64,000 bases of DNA from Diplonema papillatum. Lineage: Eukaryota > Euglenozoa > Diplonemea > Diplonemida > Diplonemidae. A program made the position numbers and the translations under genes. The stretch covers positions 420,862 to 484,861 of the forward strand of contig JAPJBO010000057.1 of the NCBI GenBank assembly GCA_030068145.1, in the 5' to 3' direction. The notes under the pieces are model-generated. The model was given only the letters and a program-made list of their open reading frames with translations. It was not told the origin of the DNA and made no database searches. This document shows, one piece after another, positions 2,908-63,825 of this stretch (position 1 is its first letter; each line of letters starts with the position of its first letter).

Positions 2908-5262
2908 ATGCGGGCGATTCTACCGCTTTGCGGTTTGTTCGCAGTCGCAGTTGCGCAGAGAACAACAGTCGGCAGCACTCCTACCACTGCAGTGGTGGCG
3001 AACCTGCCAGTGGCGAAGCTCAGTTGGGAGCTTGACATCGTGATCCGCCTGTACTGCACCACAAGTTGCGGTAAGACGGTAAAGAACGGCTGGTCGGGTT
3101 ACGTCGACGCGAGTGAGTGTACGAAGTGCACGTGTTTCAGTGGTGCACTCTCGTATTGCCAGACGGACTACGCTTGCCTGCGGAAGACGTACGGCAAACC
3201 CGAATGCCTCGGAGAAGATGACGACTGCGATGGTTTGGCCGAACACTGCCCTACTGGTACAAAGTGCACGAAAACGGAAAACGGCGAAATGAAATGCGTG
3301 CAGACTCCGAACAACGAAATCTGCGGCAGAATAAAGTGCGATACGCCCTTTGCAACATGCAAGGTGTCTGCCTACTCGACTGGTATTTGCAGGCTGGGTT
3401 GCCAGAAGTCGTGCGGCGGCTACGTCCCCCACGGGTGGTCCGGCTACGACGATGGCTCGAACCACTGCAACAGATGCTTCTGCCAATCCGGGCAGATGAC
3501 CTGCACGAAGATGTACTGCCTCGACTCCGACCCGTGCCCCGGCAGATGCACGCCGTACACACCACCAAAGCCTTGCTTCCTGACGGCTCTCAGCTCTTCG
3601 GAATTGCACATCGAGGCAGCCAAGCCGTTGACGGGCGCGCTGACATTCCGAAGACTTTGCTGGAATGCGGCGACGTGCAAGTGCGGCTTCTACCCTCGCG
3701 TGCTGTGCTTCCAGAACCCGTGCAACACTGTCAGCTGCAGGGCTGGGTACCACTGCGAGCCAAACTACTGCGGTGGTTGCCATCACAGGTACGTATTTAT
3801 ATCGAGAGTGTATCCGCAGGACGCACTCTTCGCTCAATGAAAGCTGAAGTTTCCCATCAAAGAGGGGCTGGCTAAACAACCAAGGGTCCGATCTGCCTGA
3901 TGGTTCGGATCGTCACCTGAAAACAGACTACGTACACGTCCCGGAAAAGTGATGGGGACAACGTGGTTCAACCTGATGCATTGTGCAGTAGCCTGTGCAA
4001 GCAATGATTCCTCATGTCTCGCCCCCCCTCGCAAAAATTGAAAGATATAATCACACCACAGATGCGTCAAGGACAAGTGCCCAGGCAGGGAGCGAAAGGC
4101 GTACTCGTCTCTGTCTTGCGCGGAGAGGAACTTGTTCGTGCGTGCCATAAAGGAGCTGAAGTCGACGAAGCCTTCCGAATGGGACGACTTTGTGTCGATG
4201 CACGGGCAAGCATGGTCGTACGCCCACGGCAGCAACGAGTTCTTCCCGTGGCACCGTTGGTACCTGGTTGGGTTCGAGAACGCTCTGCGATCGCTGGGTG
4301 GCGAATTCGAGTGCATCACGCTCCCGTACTGGGACTGGGAGAAGGACGCTGGCAGCGAATCATCGACCCCCCCCTTGCGATGCAACACGTTCGGGAGAAC
4401 CACAGGCACTGATGCTATGAATTGCGTTAACGAAGGTGTTAGCAACAAGGCGACCTGGTCGGTTTCCGGCGGAGGCTGTTTGAGGAGAAATTTCGGCAGC
4501 TTCAGCTTCACCGGCGAAGCAACGATCATCAACCACATCACGACGCGTCCGTCGTACAGCAGCTTCCGACCCCCTATTGAAGGATTGCACGGAACTGCCC
4601 ACGTTTGGGTTGGGGGGCACATGGGCGGCTCCGCGTCACCGGAAGACCCACTGTTCTGGATGCACCACTGCAACATCGACAGAATGTGGGCCCTGTGGCA
4701 AGATTACCACGGGTACGACGAGGTCGCGAAGAACTTGTACGCGAACCTACACTACGCCAATTCGGCCGCGTTGGACAACATCATGCCGATGGACATTGAC
4801 GCTGGCGGCAGTGTTATGTCTTACTTCACGACTCCTGTGTCGATCAGGGACATGATGCACATCCACGATATGCCAGGAGGCAACTCTTACACGTACGGCA
4901 GTGACACAATCGCATTCACATTGGTGGCTCCTGTAAGCGGATCGTGGTCGTGGGTGACACCGGGAACGTTGCCCAGGGTGAACTGCTTTGCTGCGTGCTT
5001 CATCGACGTCATCAAAGACATTGCGTTCACGCCGATCTGGTTCCACAACACGGCCATCCCGCTGGAAAAGGACTTCAAGGCCTTGACTTGCGAGAAGGAT
5101 ACCACAGAGTCGAGGCTCGAGGCCTTCACTACATTGGCTAAAAACGAGTGCAAGATCCTTTCCAAGCAGCCGATGGTTTCAGAAGATTGGATTAAGACGA
5201 TGTGGAGGGACCAGAAGAATATTGATGTGTTCAAGCACTGCTACGGACTGGACGACAACTAA
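2908..5262 (+). CDS. Secreted tyrosinase with N-terminal cysteine-rich domain (copy B)
   Basis: Two exons, 2908-3788 and 4062-5262, give 693 residues in frame. The 273-base intron begins GTACGT, ends CCACAG and interrupts codon 294 in phase 2. The start is the ATG before MRAILPLCGLFAVAVAQ, a clear signal peptide. Exon 1 is cysteine-rich: two related units (about 54-84 and 169-204) with GWSGY and CxxCxC, the second ending CNRCFCQSGQMTCTKMYC, which resembles pacifastin/VWC-type modules, then a C-rich tail PCNTVSCRAGYHCEPNYC (about 271-288). Exon 2 is the tyrosinase domain: CuA histidines 341, 349 and 358 (YAHGSNEFFPWHRWYL), CuB histidines 470, 474 and 495/496. Family function is copper-dependent oxidation of phenols; secretion is inferred from the signal peptide. 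The role of the cysteine-rich region is unknown; it could be a propeptide, inhibitor-like or wall-binding. Confidence 0.9.
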
Positions 5263-5320
5263 ATCTTACCGAGAGCAGGAACACAATTAAAAGCCTTACC
5301 CCAAGGGTACGCTATCACCA

Positions 5321-5417
5321 CCAATCTATCGACTTTACTGCTACTGCTACGAGAACGAAACTGGAGAGTGGTGTGAAGAGCTTGATGCTACCACCACGCT
5401 CCTATTCGAATGAAAAG
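5321..5417 (+). repeat. Tyrosinase 3'-flank repeat, copy 2
   Basis: Nearly identical to 821-916 and placed at the same distance after the stop codon (about 60 bases). Confidence 0.75.
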
Positions 5418-5807
5418 GGGGAAAAATTGGGAAAACTAAAATGAAAACACGCAAGAAAAAAACAACTTGCACCTACATACAAAAGTTTCCATGTTTTAGC
5501 GTATCGCACCGGTGGGGATCCTCTTCAGCATACCGGGCACGCACACTCAAAATGAAGAATACCGGTAGCTCACTAAAGGAAGAGGAGCAAGGCGACATGG
5601 CTAGATAACCCGAGCTGACCCCAGGAGAACTCAGGGTGGGCCCTCCATGATGTACCAATCCGGTAGCACTCCCGAACTAGCCCGAACCAGCAGCAAGATC
5701 AAAGAATGTCAGTCACGCCGCCCGTTTTTCTACACCGGTGCCAAGCGACCAAAAAACTCGGAAACGCAACTCACCAATTACACTATAAACGAATATCAAC
5801 AAATCGG

Positions 5808-5938
5808 AGGACTTCGTAACTTCTTCTCGCGCTCGCGTATCGCGCGTCCTCAACACTGCGCAGAGAGGCGAACCAGCAACCAGCGAACTTTCGGCACAGT
5901 GCTTCGTATGATGCGGCCAAAGTAAGTTACGAAGTCCT
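5808..5938. mobile_element. Small MITE-like element with perfect 15-bp inverted ends
   Basis: The left end AGGACTTCGTAACTT (5808-5822) is the exact reverse complement of the right end AAGTTACGAAGTCCT (5924-5938), giving a 131-base non-coding unit. Related but degenerate units lie in the other spacers, so it may have been carried by gene duplication and not by separate insertions. No target-site duplication is obvious. Confidence 0.6.
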
Positions 5939-7123
5939 CTGAACAGAAAAAAACAGAAAAACACACAACGCAAAGTCCGGGGTGTACTCGGTAGTGCGCC
6001 TCTGGACCATTGGTGTCCATTTATTTTTTTCCGGCTCAAATGTCTGCCGCGTTTCCTGTCTGGACAAGGGAGAAAGCCTCGCGACCGCAGGTATTGGCGC
6101 TTCAGCACAGTGCGGATGCAGTACTGAAAGGTCGATCCGTCCGTCGCCCGTTGCGAGGTGGCTGAACTCACTTCTCACAGGGCTTTGCCCTGGGTGCGAC
6201 AAAGGGAAAAACTAAGTATGCCGCCAGTAAATTTCAACGCGACTTCGAGACGCATCAATCACAGATTTCCTCCATCCATTCAGGAAGTGCGGCGAGGCAA
6301 GTTGCTGGAGCCTTGATGATCCCGATCGTCAAGTTACGTATAGCACTTTGCCCACGACAGAGCAGAACTACGCCGGGCTCTGATTACTAAAATGGTCGTC
6401 CACATATACCTCTCCCTCCCTGCCCCACCTTGTTCAATAAAACACTGCAGCAACACCATTTTCTGCTTGCCATTCTTCTAACCGAAGGCTTTACTTTTCG
6501 ATTGTTTCTCTTCCAGGGAAGGGGGTGGTGCTGACCTGTTCGCCGGGGGCCGTCGCTCCTGGAACTTGTCACTGCCGCAATCAGTCTTTCGCACAACTAC
6601 TCGTCCTTCTTGACTGACGAAACACACGAGAACCCGTTTCTTGATTTGACCAACCACGTGTGCGTCCCCCTTCCCTGTTTTGTGCGTTTTAGGATATGAA
6701 AAATTCTTGCTACGCCAGCGAGACTTCTTTTCTTCGGAGGGCCGTGTGTTAAACTTTGAAATCTGCGTTCGTAGAAAGCGAAGTGCCGTGATTCGCCGGC
6801 ATCATTCCAACAGGGCAACGCTGCAATGGGGAGTGCCCGCAGCAACAGAAAATCGAACAGGAGAAAAATAAAGAAGACACACGTCAACATGACCGCGGAT
6901 GCTACAACCGCATTGAAGCATTGAACAGGCCCTCCAGCCCACACGTTTATGCCCACTTTTTCATCCCCCACACACATACACGCTCTGCTCACCTCTCTTC
7001 CTCTCTCCATCTTTCTCTCGTTTCTCGCCACCTATTATCGTCTCTTCCTTTTCTCTGCATCTACTAGGAGCGGGTGTCTTAGGTGAGAAGGTAGACAATA
7101 TCGAGAGTTGCGTCAACGATGCG

Positions 7124-30810: not shown

Positions 30811-33800
30811 ATGGAGGCGAGGGAGCCGGCCCACTTGGAAGGCGCCACCCACGTAGGGGACATCGACCTGTCCCGGCTGCGCTCGCACGACCCGGGCGAC
30901 CGGGAGTGGGCGGAGATGGTGTGCACGCTGCGCGGGCAGGCGGCGGCGGCGGAGCAGGAAGCGGCGCGGGCGCACGCCGCGCCGCCGGGCCCGCTGCTGC
31001 TCGTCGCCGGCGTCGGGTGCGCGGCCGCCTGCTGCGGCTGCGCCGCGCTCGCCGCCGCCGCCGACTTGGCCGGCTCTTTTTCGCGCGACGACCGGTTCCA
31101 ACCTTCGTGGACCGCCCTGGCAGACCGGCACTTCGCGGCCTGGCCGTACGCATTCCGCGACAAAAACTGCGCGAACGCCACGATAGCCCGCGACTCGCCC
31201 CACACGACAGTTGACACCGGCACGGCGGAGTTGATCGCCGGGTGCCTGTATCCCGTGCCGTACGTGTCCGTCTGGCTCACGATGGCGGCTGCGTTCTTGG
31301 GGTTCGCTGCCGTCTGCGCGCACGCACGTGCGGTGCTCGCCCAGCCGCGGGGAACGGCGGCGACGCACGAGGCCGCGGAAGCCATCCACGCCGCCGCACT
31401 CGCGTGCCTGCGGCGGGCGGGTCTGTGGCTGGCTCCTCCGGTGGCGCTGCTGGCGGTGTTTCTGTTCGTCGCTGTCGACGGGCCGGAAAACGGGTGGAAG
31501 CCGGCGGTGTCGGCGTCGTTCGCCCTCGGCGCCGGCCTCTCCGCGGCTGCCGGCTGCTTCGGCGTGCGCATGGCCGCGGAAGGCAACTGCAGAACGGCGG
31601 CCGCCTGCCACTCCGACCGGACCGGCGGATTGACCAAAGGGCTCACCGTCGCCCTACAGACCGCAGCCTGCGCGGGCGTTGGAGCCGCAAGCGCAGCCGC
31701 CTTCGGACTGTCCCTGAGCTACGCGGTGTTCGCTGATACGGCCGCCCTCGGCGCCCTCGGCTTCGGTGCGTCGGCCGCGGCGTTGGTCGCCCGGGTCGCC
31801 GGCGGGATTCTGGCAGGGGCGGCGCACGCCCCAGCAGCCTCCCCGTCGAATGTTCCGGAGTGCAACCCCGGCGGCGGGGTGCGCGCAAAGGACGGCCACG
31901 GGACAGGAGCGGAACCCTGCCCGTCCGACGCCGCAGCACACGGTGCCGGGGACATCGCCGGCGGCGTCGGCGGGGTGTGCGTGGACCTCTTCGAGTCGCA
32001 CGCCGCGGCGGCGGCCGCGGCCGCGGCGCTGGGCGCGGCGGAGTTCGGCGGGAAAGGCGTCGCGCTGCCCCTTCGGGTGCTGGGGATCGGGGTGGTCTGG
32101 AGCGTCGTTTGCACTGCGCACGTGTTCGTCGAGCGCCGGAGGGACGGCGCCGTGCCGGGTCTCCCCGACCTGCTGCGGGGCTTGCGCAAAAACGCGGCGG
32201 CCGCGGCGGTGCTGACGGGGCTGTCGGCCTTCTTCGTGTGTGCGTACCTGTTCGAGCCGGAGGCCCGGTACTTGGCCGACCTCGGCGGGCCGCTGCCCTT
32301 CGAGCAGCGGCAGCCCGGCTGGCGGCTCTTCGGCTGCGTCGCCGTGGGGCTCGCTGCCGGCGCCGCTAAAGGCTTCGCGACGGAGTTCTTCACCAACCAC
32401 AGCGACGAGCCGGCTCGGTCCATCGGGAGAGCCACCGAGTTCGGGCCCGGACAGGTCATCATTCAGGTGTGCTCTTTTTGTGCTGACAATCTCGCGGGTT
32501 TGCCCTTCAATGTAAAGACGGAGGCAACGTGTTTAGGTGGTTGAACAGGTAGATGCAAGAGGGGAAACGATCAACCGACACGCACAAATACGGTCCTTCC
32601 ATGCAGTGTTGGTACCAAAAAGTAGTCGGCAGCGAACTACATGAAACTGACCTAAGCAGGTGAGTTCCGCTCGTGCTAACAGACAAAGTTCTTGCGTGCA
32701 GCACTCGTGGCATGCAGGGTAATACCCCGCTTTGAGAGACGTACACTCCCCGTACACCAATATCTTCCTCGAAGAAGACTTGATGCTAGTATCAACCATG
32801 CATGAAAGGCAGTGCTCTGCCTAAACGTTAAACTAAGATTTCCCCCCTTCCACGCAGGGCCTCGGCGTCGGCATGTGCTCGACGGTGCTTCCCCTGCTTC
32901 TCGTTTGCGTGGTGTTTCTCGGGGCGTACTCGATGGCTGGGTTCTACGGCACGGCGGTGGCCTGCGTCGGGATGCTGGCCACGGTCGGCGTGGCGGCGTC
33001 GACGGCCGCGTACGGCCCCGTGGCGGGCAACGCGGGCGGGATAGCGGAGACGGCGGGGCTGCCGGCGTGGGTCAAGGAGAGCACCGATGCGCTCGACGCG
33101 TTAGGCACCGCGACCGCGGCCACGGGAAGAGGCTTCGCGAACGGGAGCGCCGTGCTCAGCGCCCTGTCGGTGCTGCTCGCGTTTTCCCGGGTCGCGAACG
33201 TCGAAACCGCAGACCTCCTGCACCCTGTTGTGATCGCCGGGTTGCTGCTCGGCTCGCTGCTTCCGTTCGTGTTCGGAGCGATGACGATTCTCAGCGTCAC
33301 CAACGCCGCCCAGGCGATGCACGGCATCCGCCGGCAGTTTGCAGAAACCCGGACGACCCTCACCGATCCCTACCAGCGGCCCGACCACACCCGGTTCGTC
33401 GCCGCCGGCTGCGACGCGAGCCTGCGCGGAATGCTGATTCCCGGGGTGCTCGCCATCTTCTCACCCCTCGTCGTCGGCTTCCTCTTCGGCTCCCATGCGC
33501 TCGTCGGGTTCCTCCTGGGCGCCATCACCTCCGGGCACCTGTTGGGCGTCGTGGTGGGCAATGCCGGCGGGGCTTGGGGCAACGCGAAGAGGTGGGTGGA
33601 GGCTGGTCTATTCGAACGCGACGGCGTGCCCCAGAAGAAGGGCGGCGAGTGCCACAAAGCGGCGGTGTGCGGGGACGCGGTCGGGCGCCCGCTCAGAGAT
33701 GCGACGGGGCCTGCGCTCAACACCTTGGTCAAGCTCATGGCGCAGTTCGCGTTCGTGTGCGCGCCTCTGTTCGACGACGGTTGGAAGTACTGGTGGATAG

Positions 33801-33976
33801 GCCTTGTCCTGCTGGCTGGTGCGTGCGGCGTGGTCACCTGCATCAAGCTCTTCGGCATGCACGACACTAGTGAAAGCGGCAGCTCCCGAGTGGGCGAAGT
33901 TGTGACGGGCACGTCGGGGGTTGAAGCGGAACCGACCCACAGGTCCTCGGCATCTGGCGACCCAGCCGGCCGCTAG
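30811..33976 (+). CDS. Membrane pyrophosphatase paralogue lacking catalytic residues (M-PPase 1)
   Basis: Exons 30811-32466 and 32858-33976 give 924 residues; the intron (GTGTGC...CACGCAG) is phase 0 after VIIQ. The alignment to the intact gene at 50455-53242 is clear throughout (AEGNCRTAAAC, GRATEFGPGQVIIQGLGVGM, GFYGTAVACVGMLAT, NAGGIAE, ECHKAAVCGD), so it is a true M-PPase homologue with many membrane spans. The residues that bind Mg-PPi are gone: the KAADVGADLCGKV region is replaced by unrelated sequence, DNVGDVAGMGADLFES reads GAGDIAGGVGGVCVDLFES, DNAGGIAE reads GNAGGIAE, GNTTAATGKG reads GTATAATGRG, GAWDNAKKW reads GAWGNAKRW, and GDTVGDPFKD reads GDAVGRPLRD. It is GC-rich, unlike the intact paralogue. 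Likely without hydrolytic activity; the open frame of over 900 codons suggests it is kept for another role. Start chosen at the first ATG of the open frame. Confidence 0.85.
32601..32690 (+). repeat. Dispersed repeat with 5' splice site motif, copy in M-PPase 1 intron
   Basis: Matches 1806-1895, including AAGCAGGTGAGTTCCGCT. Confidence 0.65.
32762..32847 (+). repeat. Palindromic dispersed repeat, copy 2 (intronic)
   Basis: ATCTTCCTCGAAGAAGACTT then GATGCTAGTATCA, CATGCATGAAAGGCAGTG, CTCTGCC and AAACTAAGATTTCCCCCC. The pyrimidine run leads straight into the 3' splice site of M-PPase 1 ten bases later. Confidence 0.75.
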
Positions 33977-35053: not shown

Positions 35054-36709
35054 ATGAGCACCGCAGCCTGCAGACCTGTGCTCGTTGTTGCGTTCCTGAC
35101 GCTGTGTGTGTGCATGCTGCTCGTGGCACACGCATCGCCCACGCAGGAAATGCACACCGCGGCCTACGCAACGGCGCTGAAGAAAAGCCGGTTGTTGAGA
35201 AGGCTAGACCTCCTCGGCGACGAGTCCTTTAATACTGCCCTGGGAGGACCTGCGAGCAGTGACCAAGCCACCGGCCTGCTCACTACACCGACGGCCCCAC
35301 CTGCATCCCCGCCCCAGTCGGGAAGAACTCGGAAGCTCGCGAAGTTCCGCATCCCAGCACTGCCCGACCTCCCGACCGAGCCTCGGCTGCTGGCTTCGGG
35401 CATCACCGTGCGTAGCGTTGACCCGGAGCCCGAAAAAGACGAAGTCGCCCGCGCGTACTCCCTCCCAGGCGGAGTGCCGTTCACGGGCGAAATGCTGCCG
35501 CCTTTCCAGCTCGAACAAGACATCGGACCCGGGCTTTTGAGGCTCCCGGCCACCCCCGACTTACCGACGGGCGAAGCTGCCCTGCAGCTAGCACGGTCGT
35601 GGGGGCTGCCTGACCATTGGAACGCGCGGCATCACCCGACTCACTTCATCCTCGGATCTCCTAAAGCTGGGACGACATTCATCGAGAAGTGCTATTCTTC
35701 CGGTGCCTTTGCGGGGGATCGGGAGCACATGCCGTATCCTCGGCCGAACGTTAGATGGCCTGTTCGGAAGGACCGGCATGGAGAGCCGATCTCGTGGCAC
35801 ACCGCCTTTGCAAACGCTAACGCGTGGAACCGGACCGGGTTCAGACGATGGGATTTGGGCAAGGAGCCGAGAGTGTATCTGAGCTGCGAGAACTACACCC
35901 GTCCGATCTACTACCGGTCGTTTGAGAGCTTCCCGCCCATCGAAGAAGGATCGAAAAACTGGGAAATACTGGATGCGACTCCCACGTACTTGAGCAACCC
36001 GAGGGCGACAGAGAACATCTACATCGACCATTTACACGACCCGAAGCGTCCCCGGTTTGTGGTTGCGTGGCGTGAGCCGTTTGCAAGAATGTACAGTCAC
36101 TATGTCATGATCGCCGGGAAAAGACAGAGTCTGAACCCCGCTGCGTTTGTGATGCGCATACGCAAGGAGTACAAGATGCTTCTCGAGGTGCCGGGCTGCC
36201 GTGTCGTCGTCGATGACCCGGAGTCGCTAATGCGCGCCGAAAACAAGGACCTTCTGCGTTTCGTGCTCAACGACTGCTTCGTCTTTCCGAAGTACTTGTC
36301 GTACTCTTTGCCCGTGCTTGGCTTGCGGTACTGGCTGCACCACTTCGACGTTTCGCAGTTCACCGTGATCAAGACAACCGCAATGAGTAAAGCAGATCCG
36401 AAGTTCATGATCTCGACCCTCGAGCACGCATTCGACATCAAAGCCCTTCCGCAATGCAAACCAGGCCAAGATTGGAAGACGGAAAACTGTGCCGGGCCTG
36501 GGTTCTGGTCGCAAATCGAAGCCATGTGCTCCGACCCGAAGGCGAGGGGACAGAACCGCGCAGCGTCGTATAGTTCCAGGGGAAAAACGGAGTTGATCAC
36601 CAGGGGCACCGAGAAAGACCAAGCTCCCTTCGTCGCCCTGTTTGAAAAGTACGAAGCCCTCATGCAGCAGCTCATTAAAGACTTCAACCTCCGGCTCGTC
36701 GACGAGTGA
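35054..36709 (+). CDS. Type II membrane sulfotransferase (copy 1)
   Basis: One exon, 551 residues. The N-terminus MSTAACRPVLVVAFLTLCVCMLLVAH is a single hydrophobic segment after few residues, typical of a Golgi signal anchor, followed by a Pro-rich stem to about residue 180. The catalytic domain has the PAPS 5'-phosphosulfate loop SPKAGTTFIEKC (about 202-213) and the 3'-phosphate motif VVAWREPFARMYSHY (about 336-350), as in the carbohydrate/heparan-type sulfotransferase superfamily. Family function is transfer of sulfate from PAPS to a glycan or other acceptor in the Golgi lumen; the acceptor is unknown. It pairs with a second copy 3.4 kb downstream. From about residue 120 on, the two differ by only a few residues. 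It lies between two M-PPase genes, all on the + strand. Confidence 0.88.
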   Translation: MSTAACRPVLVVAFLTLCVCMLLVAHASPTQEMHTAAYATALKKSRLLRRLDLLGDESFNTALGGPASSDQATGLLTTPTAPPASPPQSGRTRKLAKFRIPALPDLPTEPRLLASGITVRSVDPEPEKDEVARAYSLPGGVPFTGEMLPPFQLEQDIGPGLLRLPATPDLPTGEAALQLARSWGLPDHWNARHHPTHFILGSPKAGTTFIEKCYSSGAFAGDREHMPYPRPNVRWPVRKDRHGEPISWHTAFANANAWNRTGFRRWDLGKEPRVYLSCENYTRPIYYRSFESFPPIEEGSKNWEILDATPTYLSNPRATENIYIDHLHDPKRPRFVVAWREPFARMYSHYVMIAGKRQSLNPAAFVMRIRKEYKMLLEVPGCRVVVDDPESLMRAENKDLLRFVLNDCFVFPKYLSYSLPVLGLRYWLHHFDVSQFTVIKTTAMSKADPKFMISTLEHAFDIKALPQCKPGQDWKTENCAGPGFWSQIEAMCSDPKARGQNRAASYSSRGKTELITRGTEKDQAPFVALFEKYEALMQQLIKDFNLRLVDE

Positions 36710-37231
36710 TCGCTGCTTCACGTGAAGCGTACTGGGGAATGGGGAGTTCACGTGGTTTGATGAAGGCTACGCGCTTGTGGCCAAGGGGGTTTGCTGCCAG
36801 CTCTCGGAGCTTTTGGGATGTATCCCAGTAGCCACAGGACAGGATCAGACGAAACGTCGTCCCGGTCCTTTCTTATGCTTGACCCATAGCGGCTGCTCCC
36901 AGGGTCCTTGACTTCGACTTTTTGGAGCGTTCACCTCCAGGCCAAGCCTTGTCGACAAGTGATTGCTGCTCCACGTGAAGTGTGATGCGTGTGGGGGCCT
37001 CAAAACGGATCTTGAATTGAACACAGGTACTCACTACCCCGCATAGTGTTGGTTTTGGCGACCGAACGTGCTCGCACCAGAACGGGGCTGAAAGTCCCCA
37101 TCCAAAGACCCACTGCAGAGCTGTAAGAGCTTCATGGGATGACGAAGAACGAGGGGCGCAACACCAAAAGAAAGCAGGGGTCGGGTCCTCATGATTGCTT
37201 CCTTTCTCTTATTTCGTCAAGGCAACTACCT

Positions 37232-37270
37232 CTCATCAAACATGCATGAGAGGCAGTTTTCTGCCGAAAC
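37232..37270 (+). repeat. Palindromic dispersed repeat, partial copy 3
   Basis: Only the right half is present: CATCAAACATGCATGAGAGG, CAGTTTTCTGCCGAAAC. Confidence 0.55.
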
Positions 37271-37509
37271 CAAAGCACCCGCTGTTACACTGCTAATAGA
37301 CTGTTTTCCGAGCGTTGAGTGACAAGGACACCAGCCACCAAGCTCGTCCGGATACCACCCACTGGCTACTGCCCAGTGGCGACAAATCGGACGGATGGCA
37401 CAACACACAGACCGTTCCGCTTGTCCAAACCTGTCTCCCTTTTTTCAATGTCAGCAGTGGGGCGACCGGATACTTCCCGGAGAGATGGTCCCTGCACTCT
37501 AGCTCGTCA

Positions 37510-37566
<57 letters not shown>
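37510..37566 (+). repeat. (TC)n microsatellite
   Basis: CT dinucleotides interrupted by two TTTC steps. Confidence 0.9.
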
Positions 37567-38484
37567 GGGAAAGGTCAACGCGGTAGCGGTGACCACGAGA
37601 ACACATACAGGTGGGTGGGGAGAGGCCCTGGGACTGCTAAGGCGTGACTAACCCTCGTCCCTGTCCCTCCCAGGGAGCCACCCCGGAACTAGCCTAGCCC
37701 ACCTGATGGTGGGGGCCCACCTGACGGTGGAGGCCCACACCCTTTGACTTGTCTTGATGTGTTCTCTCCCTCTCTCTCAATATCTTCTGTCCGGTAGTTC
37801 TTGCAGGCCTCTTGGCGTGTGGAGCGGCCCTAGGGGTAAACTCCTCGCCGACTCGTCACACGCTGCTGTTAAAGTCCGCACGACTGTTCAACAACTCTTT
37901 CTTCCGTACACCAATTCACGGGGGTGTGGGGCCTTGGTCTTTATCAAGAAACGAGGCTTCCCATACCACCCTATCCAAACACCGATTCATGAACCGCACT
38001 GCTTGTGCTGTGTTGCGACCACGCGACCTTTTCCTGTCTCCATTTTGTTCTTCCAGAGTGCTCGTCCCGTTTCCTATTGCTTTCGCTCCATAAGTGCTTA
38101 CTTTCAGTGCAGCCAGGCCGGGGTTTTGCCCAATCCGCCTGCTACCTCACTCAACAACTTTCTGGCCAGCCAGTTCTTAGCAGCGGCAGTGCTGTAGAGG
38201 GTGCATCGTTTTGTCTTGCACATTCAGCAAGAGAAAAGATCCCGGCGGGGGTGGGCCTACAAAGTGGGAACAGAGGAACGAAGCCTTGTCCAAACCCTTG
38301 TGTGTACGCCAGCGAGAGTCCTATACTCAACAACAGGATCCTGATTCCCACCCCCTTAGAAAGAAAACAAAATACCACATTCAAACAAACGGCTGCAAGA
38401 CACCACACCATCAAGCAAAAGGTCGAAAGACCAACCTGCATGCCCACGTGAGAGAGCTGGGTTCTTTCTACCCAGAAGCTGACG

Positions 38485-40167
38485 ATGTCCACCGAAGCCT
38501 GTAAGCCGATGTTCGTTGTTGCGGCACTGGCGGTTTGCTTGTGCATGCTCTTGTCCGTGCAACTCGCCGCCCCGCCCACGCAGAAAATGTACACCGCGAC
38601 CAGAGCAACGGCGCTGAAGAAAAGCTGGTTGCTAGAAAGATCAAACATCTACAACGACTGGGTCTTCAACCCCAGCGGCGAGACCTTGAACCAGGTCCTG
38701 GAAAAGCCGCTGGTTGGTGACCAAGCCACCGACCTGCTCACTACACAAACGGCCCCACCTGCATCCCCGCCCCAGTCGGGAAGAACTCGGAAGCTCGCGA
38801 AGTTCCGCATCCCAGCATTGCCCGACCTCCCGACCGAGCCTCAGCTGCTGGCCTCCGGCATCACCGTGCGTAGCGTTGACCCGAAGCCCGAAAAAGACGA
38901 AGTCGCCCGCGCGTACTCCCTCCCAGGCGGAGTGCCGTTCACGGGCGAAATGCTGCCGCCTTTCCAGCTCGAACAAGACATCGGACCCGGGCTTTTGAGG
39001 CTCCCGGCCACCCCCGACTTACCGACGGGCGAAGCTGCCCTGCAGCTAGCACGGTCGTGGGGGCTGCCTGACCATTGGAACGCGCGGCATCACCCGACTC
39101 ACTTCATCCTCGGATCTCCTAAAGCTGGGACGACATTCATCGAGAAGTGCTATTCTTCCGGTGCCTTTGCGGGGGATCGGGAGCACATGCCGTATCCTCG
39201 GCCGAACGTTAGATGGCCTGTTCGGAAGGACCGGCATGGAGAGCCGATCTCGTGGCACACCGCCTTTGCATACGCTAACGCGTGGAACCGGACCGGGTTC
39301 AGACGATGGGATTTGGGCAAGGAGCCGAGAGTGTATCTGAGCTGCGAGAACTACACCCGTCCGATCTACTACCGGTCGTTTGAGAGCTTCCCGCCCATCG
39401 AAGAAGGATCGAAAAACTGGGAAATACTGGATGCGACTCCCACGTACTTGAGCAACCCGAGGGCGACAGAGAACATCTACATCGACCATTTACACGACCC
39501 GAAGCGTCCCCGGTTTGTGGTTGCGTGGCGTGAGCCGTTTGCAAGAATGTACAGTCACTATGTCATGATCGCCGGGAAAAGACAGAGTCTGAACCCCGCT
39601 GCGTTTGTGATGCGCATACGCAAGGAGTACAAGATGCTTCTCGAGGTGCCGGGCTGCCGTGTCGTCGTCGATGACCCGGAGTCGCTAATGCGCGCCGAAA
39701 ACAAGGACCTTCTGCGTTTCGTGCTCAACGACTGCTTCGTCTTTCCGAAGTACTTGTCGTACTCTTTGCCCGTGCTTGGCTTGCGGTACTGGCTGCACCA
39801 CTTCGACGTTTCGCAGTTCACCGTGATCAAGACAACCGCAATGAGTAAAGAAGATCCGAAGTTCATGATCTCGACCCTCGAGCACGCATTCGACATCAAA
39901 GCCCTTCCGCAATGCAAACCAGGCCAAGATTGGAAGACGGAAAACTGTGCCGGGCCTGGGTTCTGGTCGCAAATCGAAGCCATGTGCTCCGACCCGAAGG
40001 CGAGGGGACAGAACCGCGCAGCGTCGTATAGCTCCAGGGCGAAAACGGAGTTGATCTCCAGGGGCACCGAGAAAGACCAAGCTCCCTTCGTCGCCCTGTT
40101 TGAAAAGTACGAAGCCCTCATGCAGCAGCTCATCAAAGACTTCAACCTCCGGCTCGTCGACGAGTGA
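38485..40167 (+). CDS. Type II membrane sulfotransferase (copy 2)
   Basis: One exon, 560 residues, with the same architecture as copy 1: signal anchor MSTEACKPMFVVAALAVCLCMLL, stem, then the catalytic domain with SPKAGTTFIEKC and VVAWREPFARMYSHY. The first 85 or so residues differ clearly from copy 1 and include a net insertion of nine residues (around YNDWVFNPSGETLNQVL). After that only about six residues differ (for example ANA/AYA, SKA/SKE, LITR/LISR), and the DNA is also nearly identical, synonymous sites included. The 3' flank is about 85% alike and the 5' flank less. Same biochemical prediction as copy 1; the different stem may alter localisation or oligomerisation. Confidence 0.88.
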   Translation: MSTEACKPMFVVAALAVCLCMLLSVQLAAPPTQKMYTATRATALKKSWLLERSNIYNDWVFNPSGETLNQVLEKPLVGDQATDLLTTQTAPPASPPQSGRTRKLAKFRIPALPDLPTEPQLLASGITVRSVDPKPEKDEVARAYSLPGGVPFTGEMLPPFQLEQDIGPGLLRLPATPDLPTGEAALQLARSWGLPDHWNARHHPTHFILGSPKAGTTFIEKCYSSGAFAGDREHMPYPRPNVRWPVRKDRHGEPISWHTAFAYANAWNRTGFRRWDLGKEPRVYLSCENYTRPIYYRSFESFPPIEEGSKNWEILDATPTYLSNPRATENIYIDHLHDPKRPRFVVAWREPFARMYSHYVMIAGKRQSLNPAAFVMRIRKEYKMLLEVPGCRVVVDDPESLMRAENKDLLRFVLNDCFVFPKYLSYSLPVLGLRYWLHHFDVSQFTVIKTTAMSKEDPKFMISTLEHAFDIKALPQCKPGQDWKTENCAGPGFWSQIEAMCSDPKARGQNRAASYSSRAKTELISRGTEKDQAPFVALFEKYEALMQQLIKDFNLRLVDE

Positions 40168-45837: not shown

Positions 45838-48800
45838 ATGCCTGCCGACACTTTGGATGCCGCTGCGGGGGCCAACGGACTGGGCGCGTCCTTCGAGCCG
45901 CAGCCGTCTGACGGCGGTGTGGTGGCGGAGGAGCCGGCTGCCGACGGGACTGGACCGGGGCCGGCGGGCGAGTCGCAGCAGGCGACGCGCGTGGCGGAGT
46001 TCTCCAACGACGACGACGCCGGCGGGTCCGAAACGGGGTTCGACGGCTCCGACCACGGGCGGGGCAGGCCGGCCAGTGGCACGCTCGGACACGCCCAGTC
46101 GGGGGATCTGACGTGCCGGCACACCCCCGTGGCGGGTGCAGGCCCCGCTGCGCCGCAAGCCCCGCCCGACGAGGGCGCGGCGGAGCCGTCTGCAGATGAG
46201 GCGAGCGAGTCTCGCGACCCGGCCGAGGACTCGTGGGAGCCGCAGCTGGCCGACGACTTCAAACCGGTGCCGCAGTGCGCCCGGATACGCGCGCCGTCGG
46301 AGTCGAGCAGCCGCCGCTCGTTCGCCCGGCGGACGCCCAGGGCCGCGTACGGCCAGGCAGCGGAGCCCGTGTACGGGCCGGTGCCCGTCAATTTGATGAT
46401 CGCCGGCGGGCTTTTTTTCACGCTGGCCGTCTGCTGCGTCGCCGTCAGCCTGGCCGCGCTGCACTACAACTTCTCGCGCGAAGATCGGTACCACCCGGGA
46501 CCTCTGGCCCTCTCCGAGAGGCACTGGACCAGCTACCGGGGACAGTTCGATAACATCCCGCACACTGTGGGTCTCGACAACGTGCAGTTGACCCAAGACC
46601 AAAGGCGCGCAGGGTGCATCGACACGACGATCTCGGGCGCGAGGGTGGGCAACCTGCCGAGGGAGGAGTACCCGTGCCGGTTTGAGGTACCGTACGTCGC
46701 GGTGCTTGCGGCGGCGGCCGTCTGCTTCGCGTGCTGCGGCGCGAGCTGCTTCGAGGGCTACTCCGTTTTGTGCCGCTGGCTCGGCGGCGACGCCTTGCGC
46801 AGCGCCCGGCTGCTGGTGAGGGGCGAGGTGGTCCGCGTGTACATGGGGCAGGGGACGGTGTTCCTCTGCGCTGCGGCGGCGCTGTTCGCGTTCCTGTTCG
46901 TCGGCCTCGACCAGCACGGGGAGGGAACCCACAACCCGGTGTACTGCACCTGTTTTTTGGTCGGCGGCGTCGCCACGTGGCTCGCAGCAGAAGCTGCCTC
47001 GCTGATGGCCGCCGAGGCCGCCGGGAGACTGGCCGCGTGGGGGTACGAAGGCACCCCCACGCCCGAGGGCTGTTTTTGGCTCGAGAGCCGGGTGGCGAGG
47101 AGGGGAGCCCTGGCGGCTGCCCTGGGGGCGAGCGCAGCCGTGCTGGCGGGATTCGCCGCGGTGTACGTGGGGTTCAGTGACGCCGTCGGGCTGCTGGCCT
47201 TCGCCCTCGGCAGCGCGACGGCAGCCTTCTGCCTCCGGCTCGCCGCGGCAACTGCGGGGGCCGCGGCTGAAGGAGCGCAGGGCCTGCTGGCCGCGGGAGC
47301 CGGCGCCGAGAGGTGCGGGCTGCCCTTCGCTTTTCAGGGCGGCGTCCGCGCCCGCAGCGCCGACGCGGCTTCGCCCGCGGCGGCCACAGGCGGCACGCCT
47401 CCCGACTCGCGCATCCTCCTCTCGCCCGGCTCTCCGCTGCGCGCTCGCTCGCCGTCCAGCAGGGGTTTCCACACCCCGTACCCAAACCCAGCGCCGGGCT
47501 GCGAAGACGCGGTGGTGGCGTCTGGGCGAGGGGGAGAGCTGGGGCCGTTGTCGGGCAGGGGCGCGTGTTACGTTGTCCGTCCGCCGGCGCCGCGCCCCGC
47601 CGCGACGGCGGCGGGAGGGCTAGGCCCTTTGTCGGGCAGGGGGGAGTGTTCCGTTGTCCGTCCGCCGGCGCCGGGCCCCGCCGCGAACGCGGGGGACGCG
47701 TGGGAGCCGGCGGGGGCCGCGCTGCGGCTGGCGGGCGGCGGCGCCGGCGCCGCGGCCGGGCTGCTGTGCTCGTGCGTGACGGCGGCGGCGGCTGCGTGCC
47801 TGCTGGGCGCGCCGGAGTTCGGGCGCGACGGCGTCGGGCTGCCGTTCAGCGTCGCCGCGGTCGGGTTGGGCAGCTCCGCGGTTGCGACCGGGTTCTTCTA
47901 CAGGCGCGCCGGCGACGCGTTGCCGGACGCGACGCGGCGCAAGGCGGTGCTCGCCAGCGCCGCCGTGCACGTTGCAGTGTCCGCGGCGGTGGTCGTCCCG
48001 TACTTCGGCGGCATCGCCGACACGGGGCTCTCCGGCAACCAGGACCACCCCGGACCCCGCCTGTACGGGTGCGTCGCCCTCGGAGCCGTCCTCGCGTGTG
48101 CGGTGCAGCTCGGCGCCGAGATTCACACGGCTCCGGCGCTCCTCCCGCAGCGCAGCGCCCGCGAACTGTTGGACCGCGGCCTGGCGGCCGGCATTCTGCA
48201 GGCATGTTCTTCAGACTCTCTTCCTTCTTTGGCTAGACCTCTTGAGTTTGTGCTAACCACGATTTGGGGAGGCGGGAGACCTACAAAGCCAAAAGCAGGA
48301 CCGACCCCCCCCGTTCGTGAGAAAAAGTGAAGCATAAATCCACCTGTCTTTGTCAAGAGCTGCGACTCAACTATTTTCAAGGGTTGCTAGCTTCGCGCGT
48401 ATGGCGGGCGTAAGCGTTCGACAAAAGAACACACACTTTCAACAGGGTCTGGGCATCGGCTCTGTGGCAGGCGCTTGCCACAGCATACTCTCGGCGGGGA
48501 TCGTGATCGCGACATATTACTTGGCAGGCTTCTTCGGAACGGCGGTCGCCAGCTGCAGTATGATGTCGATGCTCGTGGCGCCCATGACTGCGGCGGAGCT
48601 GAGTTCGTTGGCCGAGAGCTCGTATTCGATGTGCGTCATGGCCGGAATGTCGCCGTTGGGCGACGACCGAGCAGCCCAAATGCTACAGCTGCGCTCCTAC
48701 AGCCGCACAGCTTCGGCAGCAGCAGAGGCGTACGCTGAAGTCGGGCTGTGGATCAGCAGCGTATCGCTCGTCGTGGCATTCGGCAGGGCCTCCGGCTGCG

Positions 48801-49426
48801 ACGGCGTCGCAGCCTTCAAACCGGTGGTGATCTTCGGGCTTCTCGCTGGTCTGTCGTTCCCGCACTTGCTGACTTCTCTCCTGGTGTGGGGCGTGTTCGA
48901 TGTCAGCCGAGACATCAATCACAAGGTCCGCGCCGGCTTGTCCTACCTTGTCACGGGCAGGTTCATCCCCGTCTCGGTCCTGATGGCCCGCAGTGCACTG
49001 CGGGCGTTCGGCCCGTTGGTGGTCGTGGCGTGCGTCCCATTTTTACTGGGCTTCACGTTCGGGGCGCGCTCCCTGTTCGCATTCCTGGCCGGTGGAGTGA
49101 CCACGGCCTTGCTGAGCGGCCTTTCCGGCGGCGCTACGGGGTCGTTGATGCCGGATGCTGGAAGCACGAAACCGACCCGCGAATCGGCCTTCTTCGGCAC
49201 CTCGCTCCGAAACGTCGCAGCGCCGTCCCTAGCACTCGCGACCGCAATGGCCGTTTGTTTGGCAGTCCTTGCGGCGCCGCTGTTCGGCACCGGAGCACAA
49301 CACTTTGCGTTCGGCCTCGCCGTCCTAATCATGGGTCTGTTTGCAATCGTTACTTGGGAAGCGGTGATGCTTCGTCGCCACGAAAGAAACGGAGGCAGCG
49401 CCACGGGTATTTCAGGGTTCGATTGA
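45838..49426 (+). CDS. Highly diverged membrane pyrophosphatase paralogue, non-catalytic (M-PPase 2)
   Basis: Exons 45838-48201 and 48446-49426 give 1114 residues. The 244-base intron starts GC and ends AG; it is placed by the codon-exact match of its phase and position (ILQ|GLGIG) to the M-PPase 1 intron (IIQ|GLGVG). A tail of about 180 residues, acidic then basic and Pro-rich, precedes the first membrane span. The loop between spans 1 and 2 keeps family features (HYNFSREDRYHPGPLALSER, CIDTT, YPCRFEVPYVAV). Where an active enzyme has its PPi-binding loop there is a low-complexity insert of about 125 residues with two copies of LGPLSGRG(A/E)C(Y/S)VVRPPAP; homology resumes at LGAPEFGRDGVGLPF. 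The DNAGGIAE, GNTTAA, WDNAKK and DCHKAAVCGD motifs are all absent. So it is predicted inactive. It is GC-rich. In-frame codons continue upstream, so a further 5' exon or start is possible. Confidence 0.75.
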
Positions 49427-50454: not shown

Positions 50455-53242
50455 ATGAAACAGGTCCTAAATCCCCATAATCCGCCCGTGCTTGTTTTAT
50501 TTTGCGCACTCGAAAAGCTTGCCAGAAGAACGTGGACGCCAAGAAAATCCCAGTATCTTCTGCACATTAGAGCTTTTGCCCCCCAGTCAAAAATGGCACA
50601 CTCAGGATGCGCCGCCCGTTGTGCAGGATGACGAGACGCGAGACGTCGTCGTGGAAGAAGAGGTCGTAGTGAAGGAGTGCCAACCGTGGGACACCGTTCC
50701 GGGCCGCTCTTCGCCCATGTTCCTCGTCCTGACCGGCCTCCTCCTCGTCTGCGCGGGTTGCGCTGTTGTTCTGTGCCTCTTCGCAGAATACACCGATGAC
50801 TTCGATCGCTATGACGAATTCAACCCCGAGCTTGTGGCCCTGAAGTCGCGTCACTGGTACGACTTCAAATACCAGTTCGAGCCCATCTCTGACCTGACTG
50901 GCAGCAGCAACCAAGGCCTGACTCTCATGCAGAGAAAGGAGGCCTGCATCATCACTACGCTTAACGGCGAATCGGCGGTAGGCACTATTTTCCGCAAGCA
51001 TTACCCGTGCCAGTACCATATCCCTTATGCGGCGGTGTGGGCAGCCATGGCGTGCTCCTTCGCGGGAATGGCGGCCGTGTGCTTCTACGCGAGCAGTGTG
51101 CTGGCGCAGCCGCGTGGTACCGACGAGATGAGCCGTCTTGCGGAGATCATCCACGACGCTGCGATGACGTTCTTGCACCAAGAGTACATGTGGTTGGCCC
51201 CTTTCGTGGCTCTTCTGTGGATCTTCCTGTACACTGCGGTTGACGGTGAGGAGAACGACTGGGTGCCGTCGACGTCTGTGTCTTTCTTGATCGGTGCGTT
51301 CCTGTCTGCGTCGTGCGGGTACTTCGGTATGCACATTGCCACGGAGGGTAACTGCAGGACTGCGGCAGCGTGCTACTCGGACAGGGACGCTGGTGTCTCG
51401 AACGGAATGGGAGTGGCGTTCCGCACCGGCGCGTGCATGGGTCTTGCCGTGGTCAGCTTCGGTATCTTCGGTCTGGCTCTGTGCTACGTGACGTTCGGAA
51501 ACACCAACTCCCTTGGTGGATTCGGTTTCGGTTCGTCTGCTGTGGCTCTGTTCGCACGTGTGGGTGGTGGTATCTACACGAAGGCTGCCGACGTGGGAGC
51601 TGACTTGTGCGGGAAGGTTGACAACGCGCTCGCTGAGGACTCGCCGAAGAACCCCGCCACGATTGCTGACTGTGTTGGAGACAACGTGGGTGACGTTGCC
51701 GGTATGGGTGCTGACTTGTTCGAGTCGTTCGTCGGAGCTGTCGTGGCTGCGTGCGTGATGGGCGCCCCTGAGTTCGGAAAGAGAGGTGTTGCCCTCCCGT
51801 TCTATATTGTGTCGATCGGCCTTGTCTGGAGCATTGTGTGCACGATGTACGTCCGTGTCGGAGTGAAGGCTGACGGCTCGATCCCGACGCTTGACGACTT
51901 GCTGAAGGCGTTGCGCTTGAACATCTTCGCTGCAGGCATCCTGATCACGATCACGACCCTCTTCCTCTGTGTGTTCTTCTTCGATGATGAAGCCGACATT
52001 CTCGACGACGTCCCCAACGTCCCGAAGAACCAGCTGAACCCGGGTCCCCGTCTGTTCGGATGCATCATGCTCGGTCTCGTTGTCGGTATCCTCATCGGCA
52101 TGGTGACAGAGTACTTCACGAGCCACACTGAGGAGCCGACTCAGTCGATTGGCCGTGCCACCGAGTTCGGACCTGGCCCCGTGATCATCCAGGGTCTCGG
52201 TATGGGTATGTACTCGACGGTTGTGCCGCTTCTGCTGATCGTGGCTGCTGTGCTGGGCGCCTACTACCTGTGCGGCTTCTACGGCACTGCGATTACTGTG
52301 TGCGGTATGTTGTCGACGCTCGGAGTGACGATGTCTACGGACGCTTTCGGCCCTGTTGCTGACAACGCTGGTGGTATTGCGGAGATGAGCGAGTTGCCTG
52401 AGTGGGTTCGTGACTACACTGACGCCCTCGACTCGTTGGGTAACACGACTGCTGCCACTGGAAAGGGTTTCGCCAACGGTAGTGCTGTGCTGAGTGCGAT
52501 CTCGCTCCTTGCTGCCTTCGCCCGCGTTGCTGGAATCGAGGAAGTTGATCTGATGCGTCCGGTTGTTGTGATCGGTGTTCTGATCGGATCGCTGCTTCCG
52601 TACATCTTCGGAGCCATGACGATGTTGAGTGTGAACAAGGCTGCTCAGGAGATGATGCACGAGGTGCGTCGTCAGTTCCGTGCTGACCCGCTGATCCTGA
52701 CTGACCCTACGCACAAGCCGGACTACACGAGATGCATCACGATCAGCTGCACGTCGTCGCTGAGAGAGATGCTCATGCCTGGAGTTCTGGCGATCTTCGC
52801 GCCGCTGATCATGGGTTTCGGCTTCGGCTCGCACTGCCTGGTCGGAGTGCTGGTCGGTGCCATCGCCTCAGGCTACCTGCTGGGTGTGCAGATGAGCAAC
52901 ACGGGTGGTGCTTGGGACAACGCCAAGAAGTGGATCGAGGCCGGCAACTTCAAGGTTGACGGAGTCGTGCAGGGCAAGAGAACTGACTGCCACAAGGCTG
53001 CTGTGTGTGGTGACACGGTGGGAGACCCGTTCAAGGACACGTCTGGTCCGGCTCTCAACATTCTGATCAAGTTGATGACCCGATTCTCGTTCGTGTGCGC
53101 TCCTCTCTTCGACGAGAGCTGGGACTTCTGGTGGATCGGAGTCATCTTGCTCGCCGTGACCGTTGTCCTTGTTGCCATCATCCAGCTGGTCATCCTCAAG
53201 AAACCGGTCAGCGAAGCGGAAGCGGAACCGGCCCAGGTATGA
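50455..53242 (+). CDS. Membrane-bound proton pyrophosphatase, intact (M-PPase 3)
   Basis: A full-length type I M-PPase that couples PPi hydrolysis to H+ pumping into vacuoles or acidocalcisomes. All hallmark motifs are present: GGGIYTKAADVGADLCGKV (nt about 51564-51620), DNVGDVAGMGADLFES, ATEFGPGPVIIQGLGMGM, DNAGGIAEM, GAWDNAKKWIE and DCHKAAVCGDTVGDPFKD (about 52987). Alanine in GNTTAATGKG is the signature of the K+-dependent class. The body is one uninterrupted exon. The N-terminus is uncertain: the frame has no ATG until 50717, which lies at the first membrane span, yet an acidic segment (VQDDETRDVVVEEEVV) is open before it. I propose a tiny first exon 50455-50463 (Met-Lys-Gln) and a 142-base intron ending at 50605, joining in frame to 50606 (881 residues in all). 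Codon use favours GCT, GGT and CGT, unlike its two GC-rich paralogues, which fits high expression. Confidence 0.93.
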
Positions 53243-61719: not shown

Positions 61720-61888
61720 GGGGGGGGGGGGGGGTTTGGGCAGATGTTTTCTGGCACAGTAAGATACTGGACAAGTGGGGTATAGGACCTACGGCCCCCC
61801 AAAAACCATGTTTGCGAGCCGATTTCGAGCTCAAATGCTCTCGGCGAGCCTTCTTTTGAGCACAAAACGCGGTTTTTCTGGATTTCGA
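61720..61888 (+). repeat. Left terminal inverted repeat
   Basis: About 169 bases, G-run first; pairs with 63826-63997. It contains the motif TGGGGTATAGGACC, also in the deleted relative at 58.0 kb. Confidence 0.9.
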
Positions 61889-61915
61889 GGCCCCAGGTAG
61901 GGTAACGCCTGTACA

Positions 61916-63766
61916 ATGACTTTGATACAGCACCCACCCACCAAAGGAACTGAACAAAATCTTAAAATGCGCGACTCGGGAATGCGTTTTGTCGAAACAT
62001 CGGTTGAAGAATTCGCGAGGCAAGACGCGTATACGAAGTACGATAAGTCATCGGGCACCATGAAGAGACGCTTCAAAGTGACGAGAGCCTTTCTGGAGAA
62101 GGTCGCAGGAGCTGACCCGATCGGGTTCGTTGTATCTCTGTGTACAGAGACTGAGAAGGCCCGAATCTGGCGTGAGTTATCCGGTTCATTTCCTGAAACG
62201 TTCAACAGCATCACGCACGAGCTGACACGGCGCAAGATCGTGCAGGGTTTGGGATGGGTGAGGCAGCGGTACGCGGTAGTGGGCATGAAAGTTGGGGACA
62301 AGCTGTGGGCCAACAGACAGAACGGGGAAGAGGTGGCAAGAGGCGGGCGACCAACAAAGGTGACCCCGGAAATGAGGCAGCAGGCATTCGACGATCACGA
62401 GCAGGCATCGACACCAACGTCACGTGTCATCAAAAAGCTTTGCACCGCAGACGAGACGGTTGTCGCACAGAACGTTCTCGTACCCTTCCAGCTGGTGTAC
62501 GAAGAAAGCGACCTGAATCAAAAGGTGTCGTACACCACGTACCGCCGGCTACGTGGAGCCCAGTTCCAGCACCTTTCTCGACGGACCGATGTGTGTGACA
62601 CCTGTGCAGAAGGGAACATGATTAACAATCGCCTTCGTGAGTACATTGCCAGTAACAAGAAGTGGCTCACTTCGCAGTACTGGCGATCAGACGCGAGCCC
62701 CTTTTTTCTGTTCGGCGCTTTGGACGAACCTACTATTCCCCCCCAAGTCAAGAGCAGTTTAGCAGTTATGTTGCACCAGCTCATGGAAGTCCAGCTTCAT
62801 CAGGAATCTGCGGCACGACAGAGGGCAGCTTACAATGCTCACCTCAAGAACCCACCACCCGGCTGTGTCGTGGTGACATTCGACTTTAAGCAGAAGGGAA
62901 AGTTGCCGATGCTGCCAGAAGAGCCTGGTCAGCTTTTTTACAACCAGGGGGCCTTCTCTCTCCTTGGGTTTGGCTTGCATTGGACAACTGGTGATTCGAC
63001 CAAACGCCAGCACATTGACATACTGATGCGCACGCACAATCAGTGCTCGTTTGCCGCAGTGCGTGCTCTGGAGCGGGCAAAGGAATTCTTTCCGGAAGAC
63101 AAAAAGTGTGTTTACTGGTGTGATTCTGGTAGGCATTTCCGAAGCCTCCTCTTCATCAGTCGCCTTCTCGAAGAAAAATCGACGGCTTCGATAAACTTCT
63201 TTGAGGGCGGGCACGGCAAGAACGACCGTGACCAGCACTTCGGCTCTGTTAGCCGGGCACTCGACATGGCATCCCGCAAGAACGCCGTGCAAACGTTGAA
63301 CGATGTCAAAGGAGTGATAGAAAGGATTGCTTGCACAGCGGCAGTTCAAGTTCGTATCCGTTCACAAACCGCCACTTTCAACGTCAGAAAGATAGGGAAC
63401 GTCATGGTCATCGGGTCATATGAGAAAGACAGCCTTGGCAATGTGACAGTTCATGACTTCAGTGGTGAACCGGGGTGCAAACTTCGAGCGAAAACCCGCC
63501 CTGTGGCCTTCACGTTCACGCCAAAGGTCTCGGACAAGCTGCCGCTGTGCAACTCAGATAGTGAGTGTGACGTACTGAGTAGCAGGAGTGAGTGCTCGTC
63601 ATCTAGCTCAAGCGAAGGTCTGAAAGGAAGGCTCCATAAAAAGCGGCTCAAGAAGAAACAGGTTTTCGACGAGCTGGCTGCGAAAGACCAAAAAGAGGCT
63701 AAGAGAGCAAGAACCACTGGCAGGAAACCTGTAGCAAAGTCAGCAAGTCGCGGCACGAAGCGGTAG
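61916..63766 (+). CDS. DDE-type transposase, intact
   Basis: 616 residues in one exon, starting at the first ATG after the left inverted repeat. The N-terminal third contains a DNA-binding-like segment (RGGRPTKVTPEMRQQAFDD, about 142-160). A CDTCAEGN motif (about 226) may bind zinc. Three acidic regions fit an RNase H-like core: VVVTFDFKQKGKLPM (about 320), CVYWCDSGRHFRSLLFI (about 400) and FFEGGHGKNDRDQHFG (about 430). The C-terminus is Ser-rich, then Lys/Arg-rich (KKRLKKKQ to RGTKR), as a nuclear localisation signal. I do not recognise the superfamily with certainty; the family assignment rests on the acidic motifs and on the flanking inverted repeats. A decayed relative at 58204-58860 lacks the second and third acidic regions. 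Confidence 0.85.
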   Translation: MTLIQHPPTKGTEQNLKMRDSGMRFVETSVEEFARQDAYTKYDKSSGTMKRRFKVTRAFLEKVAGADPIGFVVSLCTETEKARIWRELSGSFPETFNSITHELTRRKIVQGLGWVRQRYAVVGMKVGDKLWANRQNGEEVARGGRPTKVTPEMRQQAFDDHEQASTPTSRVIKKLCTADETVVAQNVLVPFQLVYEESDLNQKVSYTTYRRLRGAQFQHLSRRTDVCDTCAEGNMINNRLREYIASNKKWLTSQYWRSDASPFFLFGALDEPTIPPQVKSSLAVMLHQLMEVQLHQESAARQRAAYNAHLKNPPPGCVVVTFDFKQKGKLPMLPEEPGQLFYNQGAFSLLGFGLHWTTGDSTKRQHIDILMRTHNQCSFAAVRALERAKEFFPEDKKCVYWCDSGRHFRSLLFISRLLEEKSTASINFFEGGHGKNDRDQHFGSVSRALDMASRKNAVQTLNDVKGVIERIACTAAVQVRIRSQTATFNVRKIGNVMVIGSYEKDSLGNVTVHDFSGEPGCKLRAKTRPVAFTFTPKVSDKLPLCNSDSECDVLSSRSECSSSSSSEGLKGRLHKKRLKKKQVFDELAAKDQKEAKRARTTGRKPVAKSASRGTKR

Positions 63767-63825
63767 CCAACTCGATGGTATTCCGCTGCTCTTTTCCTTC
63801 CTTCATCAGAATCAATCAAGGGACA

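Follow-up and report, generated by a model that had tools for sequence, protein, structure and literature searches.

A window of 64,000 nucleotides from the diplonemid Diplonema papillatum (contig JAPJBO010000057.1; the window is the whole stretch of DNA that was analysed) carries on its + strand, at 30811-33976, a membrane pyrophosphatase (M-PPase) paralogue, gene A, whose alignment shows a dismantled Mg-pyrophosphate (Mg-PPi) site within a largely retained scaffold, with the ion gate and an extra N-terminal segment also kept. Gene A looks like a selectively maintained pseudoenzyme and not like a pseudogene. We give a probability of about one half to the reading that it is a maintained M-PPase pseudoenzyme, among paralogues that lack the fuel site in an Na+-PPase-like expansion, and that it acts as a silent partner subunit. 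Why should a genome retain a pump that has lost its fuel site? The pattern of what is kept and what is lost suggests that this copy has been retained for a function other than the use of pyrophosphate as fuel.

Once spliced, the gene has 924 codons and no internal stop. Exon 1 (30811..32466, 552 codons, with a predicted start codon) encodes an N-terminal extension, an extra helix (TM0), an extracytosolic segment, the transmembrane helices TM1-TM9 and the start of TM10, and exon 2 (32858..33976, 372 codons and the stop) encodes TM10-TM16 and a C-terminal extra helix, as placed by alignment and hydropathy. TM0 and the extracytosolic segment (30997..31251) include two cysteines that are aligned in gene A, the paralogues B and C of the same window and the loci L009, L010 and L015 elsewhere in the genome, with a predicted local distance difference test (pLDDT) score mostly below 50 in the models of C and A. 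The intron (32467..32857) is 391 nt long, with GT-AG ends and a guanine-plus-cytosine (GC) content of 0.49. Left unspliced, the frame stops at 32542-32544, so that the 924-codon frame needs the intron. As both the start codon and the splice sites have been predicted from sequence, the two exons might be imagined to form part of a differently spliced gene, which would make gene A an artefact of annotation; this is highly improbable, for the intron is a canonical GT-AG one at a position common to L009 (255 nt) and B (244 nt, GC-AG), and the open reading frames (ORFs) on either side of it match Pfam H_PPase (PF03030), that of exon 1 at 1e-41 and that of exon 2 at 7e-93. The undamaged M-PPase frame of 924 codons described in a first-pass annotation of this DNA, made from the letters alone, is thus borne out by the stop-free joined exons and by both Pfam matches. 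Part of the intron, 32762-32847, is a dispersed repeat found at 83-98% identity in at least 36 places in the genome and ending in a C-rich run. A reading of the intron as an introner was rejected, since in the 12 loci inspected the repeat ends in the C-rich run and the outer flanks differ, and we take the piece to be the end portion of a repeat dispersed through the genome.

Fundamental to the interpretation is the hydrolytic centre, taken here as the 16 residues listed in PMC6882861 and numbered as in the Vigna H+-PPase; the polar TM12 residue that this source prints as N12.53 was taken to be a slip, and N534, which counts as 12.43, was used. The reference set comprised prokaryotic M-PPases from 79 of the best 80 loci listed, together with part of Vigna, and the comparison set the 123 other positions that are near-invariant in the prokaryotes and common to C, L010 and Vigna. 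Gene A departs from the reference at 12 of the 16 positions of the hydrolytic centre and at 30 of the 123 others (Fisher p=1e-4), and a residue-matched control of other D/E/K/N/R positions, with 8/24 changed, also differs from 12/16 (p=0.011). The Mg-PPi hydrolytic centre is intact in C and L010 (0/16 changed) and not in gene A. No prokaryotic row has any of the 16 residues changed (0/79), a figure that is partly built in, since the prokaryote scan searched with AWDNAKK and one other peptide pattern and rows without AWDNAKK were dropped. An earlier list of 18 ligand residues gave 14/18 against 28/121 for gene A (p=1e-5) and 12/18 against 25/121 for L015 (p=1.5e-4); it has been superseded by the published list, with which the p-values are weaker.

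The changes begin with a replaced substrate loop that covers the end of TM5, loop 5-6 and the start of TM6 (31816..31965), where K250G, D253H, D257A, E268G, D269G, D279H and D287G are accompanied by an in-frame insertion and only D283 is kept. Further on are D507G in the GNAGG motif (33026..33028), N534T and K541R in TM12 (33107..33130), D691G and K695R in WGNAKR with K694 kept (33575..33592), and D727R and K730R in VGRPLRD with D731 kept (33680..33700). The residues that survive are D283, K694, D723 and D731 (4/16), and the centre has lost nine of its 12 acidic residues. The motif changes named in the first-pass annotation, namely a replaced K250-D287 stretch, DNAGG to GNAGG, WDNAKK to WGNAKR and GDP to GRP, are all present; its assertion that every cluster is altered is true cluster by cluster and fails residue by residue, given the four survivors and an untouched gate. 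We infer from these losses that gene A cannot hydrolyse PPi.

The ion gate itself is complete in gene A (5/5), with D6.50, E6.53 and S6.54 aligned in the DLFES of TM6 (31984..31998) and N16.46 and K16.50 in TM16 (33719..33733). The combination of a full gate, which is also kept at four of five positions in L015, with the loss of most of the hydrolytic centre is what might be expected of a protein that acts by itself, either as a sensor or as a cation conduit, passive or gated, and the charge preserved at K541R, K694, K695R and K730R might then allow basic pocket residues to bind phosphate or another anion. We consider this main competitor of the partner-subunit reading unlikely, as the gate residues are perhaps kept only to hold the fold, and a change of K to R raises GC, so that the kept charge may be mutational. 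Could the pocket instead have been remodelled for another substrate? The His and Arg gained at ligand positions (D253H, D279H and D727R) would be in keeping with such an activity, but with the acidic residues of the centre so depleted, with loop 5-6 modelled at low confidence and with many of the same positions changed to other residues in L015, we hold it to be very unlikely.

With regard to selection, all comparisons are between paralogues within one genome. Neutral drift simulated from L010 down to gene A's 51% amino-acid identity produced a mean of 16.6, 15.2, 8.6 and 5.0 stops at an equilibrium GC of 0.50, 0.55, 0.72 and 0.87, respectively, with no stop-free run in 100 at any of the four settings (0/400 overall). 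Where stops were forbidden, the loss of at least 12 of the 16 hydrolytic residues with at most 30 of the 123 others arose in 0/200 runs at GC 0.50 and 0/200 at GC 0.87. Three-taxon codon models reject omega=1, where omega is the ratio of nonsynonymous to synonymous substitution rates (dN/dS), on the gene A branch, with omega at 0.10 (p=3e-10) alongside L010 and L009 and at 0.075 (p=1.4e-11) alongside L010 and L015, values that are rough given the saturation of dS and the number of branches whose length lies at the upper fitting bound. The exons have a GC content of 0.716, which at the first, second and third codon positions (GC1, GC2 and GC3) is 0.709, 0.574 and 0.867, compared with 0.494 in the intron, 0.54-0.56 in the flanks and 0.50-0.51 in the stretches between the exons of the genome's VP1-like gene (contig C402) and VP2-like gene (contig C737), both named from motifs. 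The GC3 of gene A is also above that of gene C (0.723). Drift towards the background of about 0.50 would lower GC3, and the high value in the exons of gene A thus counts against decay.

Mutational bias was rejected as the cause of the residue contrast, as the residue-matched control and the GC-0.87 simulation failed to explain gene A. What an unconstrained piece looks like in this genome is shown by a gene A-derived relic on contig C209, with 137 columns at 93% identity and three indels, plus 28 bp further on; no further near-identical copy of gene A was found among the 40 genome candidates, out of 1,771, that were scored. Haplotypes proved uninformative on selection, since contigs C2400 and C57 differ by one synonymous change in C and by none in the covered part of B, and gene A lies outside C2400. 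The pseudogene reading is accordingly disfavoured by the absence of stops, the neutral simulations, the rejection of omega=1 and the contrast in GC between exons and intron. The first-pass annotation had preferred a pseudoenzyme to a pseudogene and had taken dN/dS near 1 as the mark of the latter; the selective residue loss, the simulations and the GC-rich, three-periodic exons speak for its preference, and on the gene A branch a ratio of 1 is rejected, if roughly.

The scaffold was assessed through predicted structures. The AlphaFold model of gene C (14 prokaryotic rows; predicted template modelling score, pTM, 0.75) contains the 16 canonical helices with an extra helix before (75-107) and after (880-903) them, of which the first has a pLDDT below 50 and the second about 45-61, such that both also depend on hydropathy and alignment. 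A Foldseek search with this model returned as its first eight matches chains of the Thermotoga maritima Na+-PPase, with a TM-score by target of 0.85-0.89. The model of gene A exon 1 (15 rows, pTM 0.65) has helices that match TM1-TM9 and holds little information on detail, with a pLDDT below 50 at residues 337-372 of loop 5-6; TM10-16 are placed by alignment and hydropathy. Between A and C, identity is 0.69 in TM11, 12, 15 and 16 and 0.52 in the helices grouped here as lipid-facing. TM10 and TM13, which PMC5150537 describes as the main dimer interface of M-PPases, are 0.66 identical as against 0.47 in the catalytic TM5-6 (p=0.016), the opposite of what is seen in the 79 prokaryotic rows (TM10/13 0.47, TM5-6 0.66).

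Gene A belongs to a family in which C, L010 and L012 are intact. Gene C (50492..53242, + strand) has 16/16 hydrolytic and 5/5 gate residues, and as no ATG precedes its residue 76 the gene may begin in a separate exon. L015 (locus positions 3772-6681) is a full-length single-exon paralogue in which 10 of the 16 hydrolytic residues are changed and four of the five gate residues kept; the changes set against 27/123 at other positions (p=0.0015) involve many of the positions changed in A, to different residues. That another paralogue has undergone a similar loss, and that the exon-1 helices are retained in the prediction for A, lends further support to maintenance as a pseudoenzyme. L009 (contig C486, minus strand) is near-intact, with D691N, K695R and D500A, has 1/16 hydrolytic residues changed against 8/123 others (p=0.68), and may represent an early stage in becoming inactive. 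Gene B (45838..49426, + strand; open over 1114 aa when spliced) has exons at 45838-48201 and 48446-49426 about a GC-AG intron at 48202-48445, with 13 of the 16 hydrolytic residues changed (gaps counted) and only S6.54 kept in the gate. Its extracytosolic segment is 0.40 identical to that of C, above L009, A and L015 (0.24-0.29), and most of its core has diverged.

Several points, in addition to the roughness of the omega values, weigh against maintenance and a partner role. Gene B is eroded throughout (79/123 other positions changed, p=0.14), and part of the A-B-C family may simply be decaying. The residue-matched control for L015 (8/24, p=0.068) is not significant, and L015 has no difference between dimer and catalytic helices (0.61 vs 0.60, p=1). 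Nor is a high GC3 peculiar to A, since a VP2 exon has 0.867 and another ORF of the window 0.928. The main sceptical reading is that the function of gene A was lost recently after long constraint, leaving early decay with no present role. The long branch of gene A (0.77, against about 0.085 for the stem and tip of C), its richness in Ala and Gly and the still greater erosion of B would be compatible with this, whereas 12 catalytic losses beside 30 of 123 others with no stop, and a GC3 of 0.867 against about 0.50 in the sampled introns and spacers, would not readily follow from it, and we disfavour it as improbable.

As to origins, a tree of 35 rows, including 26 of the 79 prokaryotic ones and omitting L012 (whose translation looks identical to that of L010 over the common part), places A, B, C, L009, L010 and L015 in one clade (support 100/100), with the caveats that B is a very long branch and that the composition of A, B, C, L010 and L015 is marked as odd. 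The clade stands next to bacterial enzymes of the Na+-PPase type and separate from the VP1 and VP2 of the genome. It joins Caldilineaceae (92/85) and, in a ten-row set, two further Chloroflexota rows (98/96), which fits a bacterial transfer followed by expansion within the genome. The genome's VP1 joins Vigna (100/100), and VP2, which forms a long branch and served to root the drawing, lies beside an archaeal row (98/98). The intact paralogues are like VP1 (Vigna radiata, 4A01) and VP2 in fold and residues, although the glutamate found at 6.57 in Vigna and in the genome's VP1 is at 6.53 in the A-B-C clade except B.

The closest likeness in structure is to the K+-dependent Na+-PPase of T. maritima (PDB 4AV3, 5LZQ and 8B21), which the model of C matches in fold and with which C and A share E6.53, S6.54, A12.46 and G12.49; E6.53, A12.46 and G12.49 together are the Na+-PPase subclass pattern. 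It differs in that gene A is without 12 of the 16 hydrolytic-centre residues and in that the A-B-C family has the extra N-terminal helix and extracytosolic segment and the extra C-terminal helix, all of low model confidence. Gene C, a eukaryotic gene, has E6.53, S5.43, A12.46 and G12.49. The Na+-PPase sources named in the literature consulted are prokaryotes. Features of this residue pattern also occur in dual Na+,H+ pumps and in some H+ pumps, which limits the call of specificity. The residues suggest an Na+-type M-PPase in a eukaryote, which would belong to a group that ranks among the most abundant protists of the ocean.

Pseudoenzyme subunits of oligomeric enzymes keep the fold and lose catalytic residues, with an active paralogue in the same genome. 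Gene A is like them on all three counts. We know of no pump of the M-PPase class that uses a dead subunit, and no account of a catalytically dead M-PPase appeared among the matches listed, which covered titles and abstract openings in a literature mostly without subscription journals. With gate and interface kept and the fuel site lost, gene A would suit the role of a silent partner. It would dimerise with an intact paralogue such as C, a step of which we are less sure than of its inability to hydrolyse PPi, and would form the silent half of a half-of-the-sites dimer, passing or blocking a conformational signal through TM10/TM13 and so setting turnover, relieving inhibition by excess substrate or altering ion coupling. 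PMC10897367, PMC5150537 and PMC6882861 describe half-of-the-sites reactivity, binding of PPi to a single subunit at any moment once an ion has bound at the gate, and signalling via the dimer interface. An A-C heterodimer is what we infer, and the distance of about 17-20 kb between the genes is no sign of it, as duplication alone explains their proximity. A broader and more tentative proposal is that diplonemids built asymmetric M-PPases, whereby duplication of a transferred pump of the Na+-PPase type was followed, in two or more copies, by loss of the fuel site but not of the gate, to give a one-engine heterodimer or a fuel-free Na+ conduit.

Communication between M-PPase subunits is debated, with positive cooperativity, negative cooperativity and half-of-the-sites reactivity all reported. 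A natural dead subunit beside a live one, if true, would offer a test of inter-subunit coupling that nature has already set up. The host species has published homologous knock-ins (PMC10161547), and that source also describes an assembly of 280 Mb, introns bounded by GT-AG and in a few cases by GC-AG, the presence of transposable elements inside them and horizontal transfers, in keeping with the present genome.

In the wider genome, the chlorophyll a/b-binding family has no match in 271 Mb searched in six frames without an intron model. The sequence that we take to be the diplonemid spliced leader has 616 matches (325 + 291, with at most 3 mismatches; control 0). Elsewhere in the window, 2695-25557 holds a two-ORF unit repeated four times in tandem, a Cys-rich ORF and then a tyrosinase-type one, with one ORF of each kind run against Pfam and the others assigned by DNA similarity or by eye. 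Two ORFs, of 551 and 560 aa, lie in tandem at 35054-40167, about 96% alike in DNA and sulfotransferase-like by eye, the second without a Pfam match. Finally, a 616-aa ORF with no Pfam match at 61721-63992 lies between inverted repeats of about 170 bp that are 95% alike and start with a poly-G run, and the whole looks like a DNA transposon.
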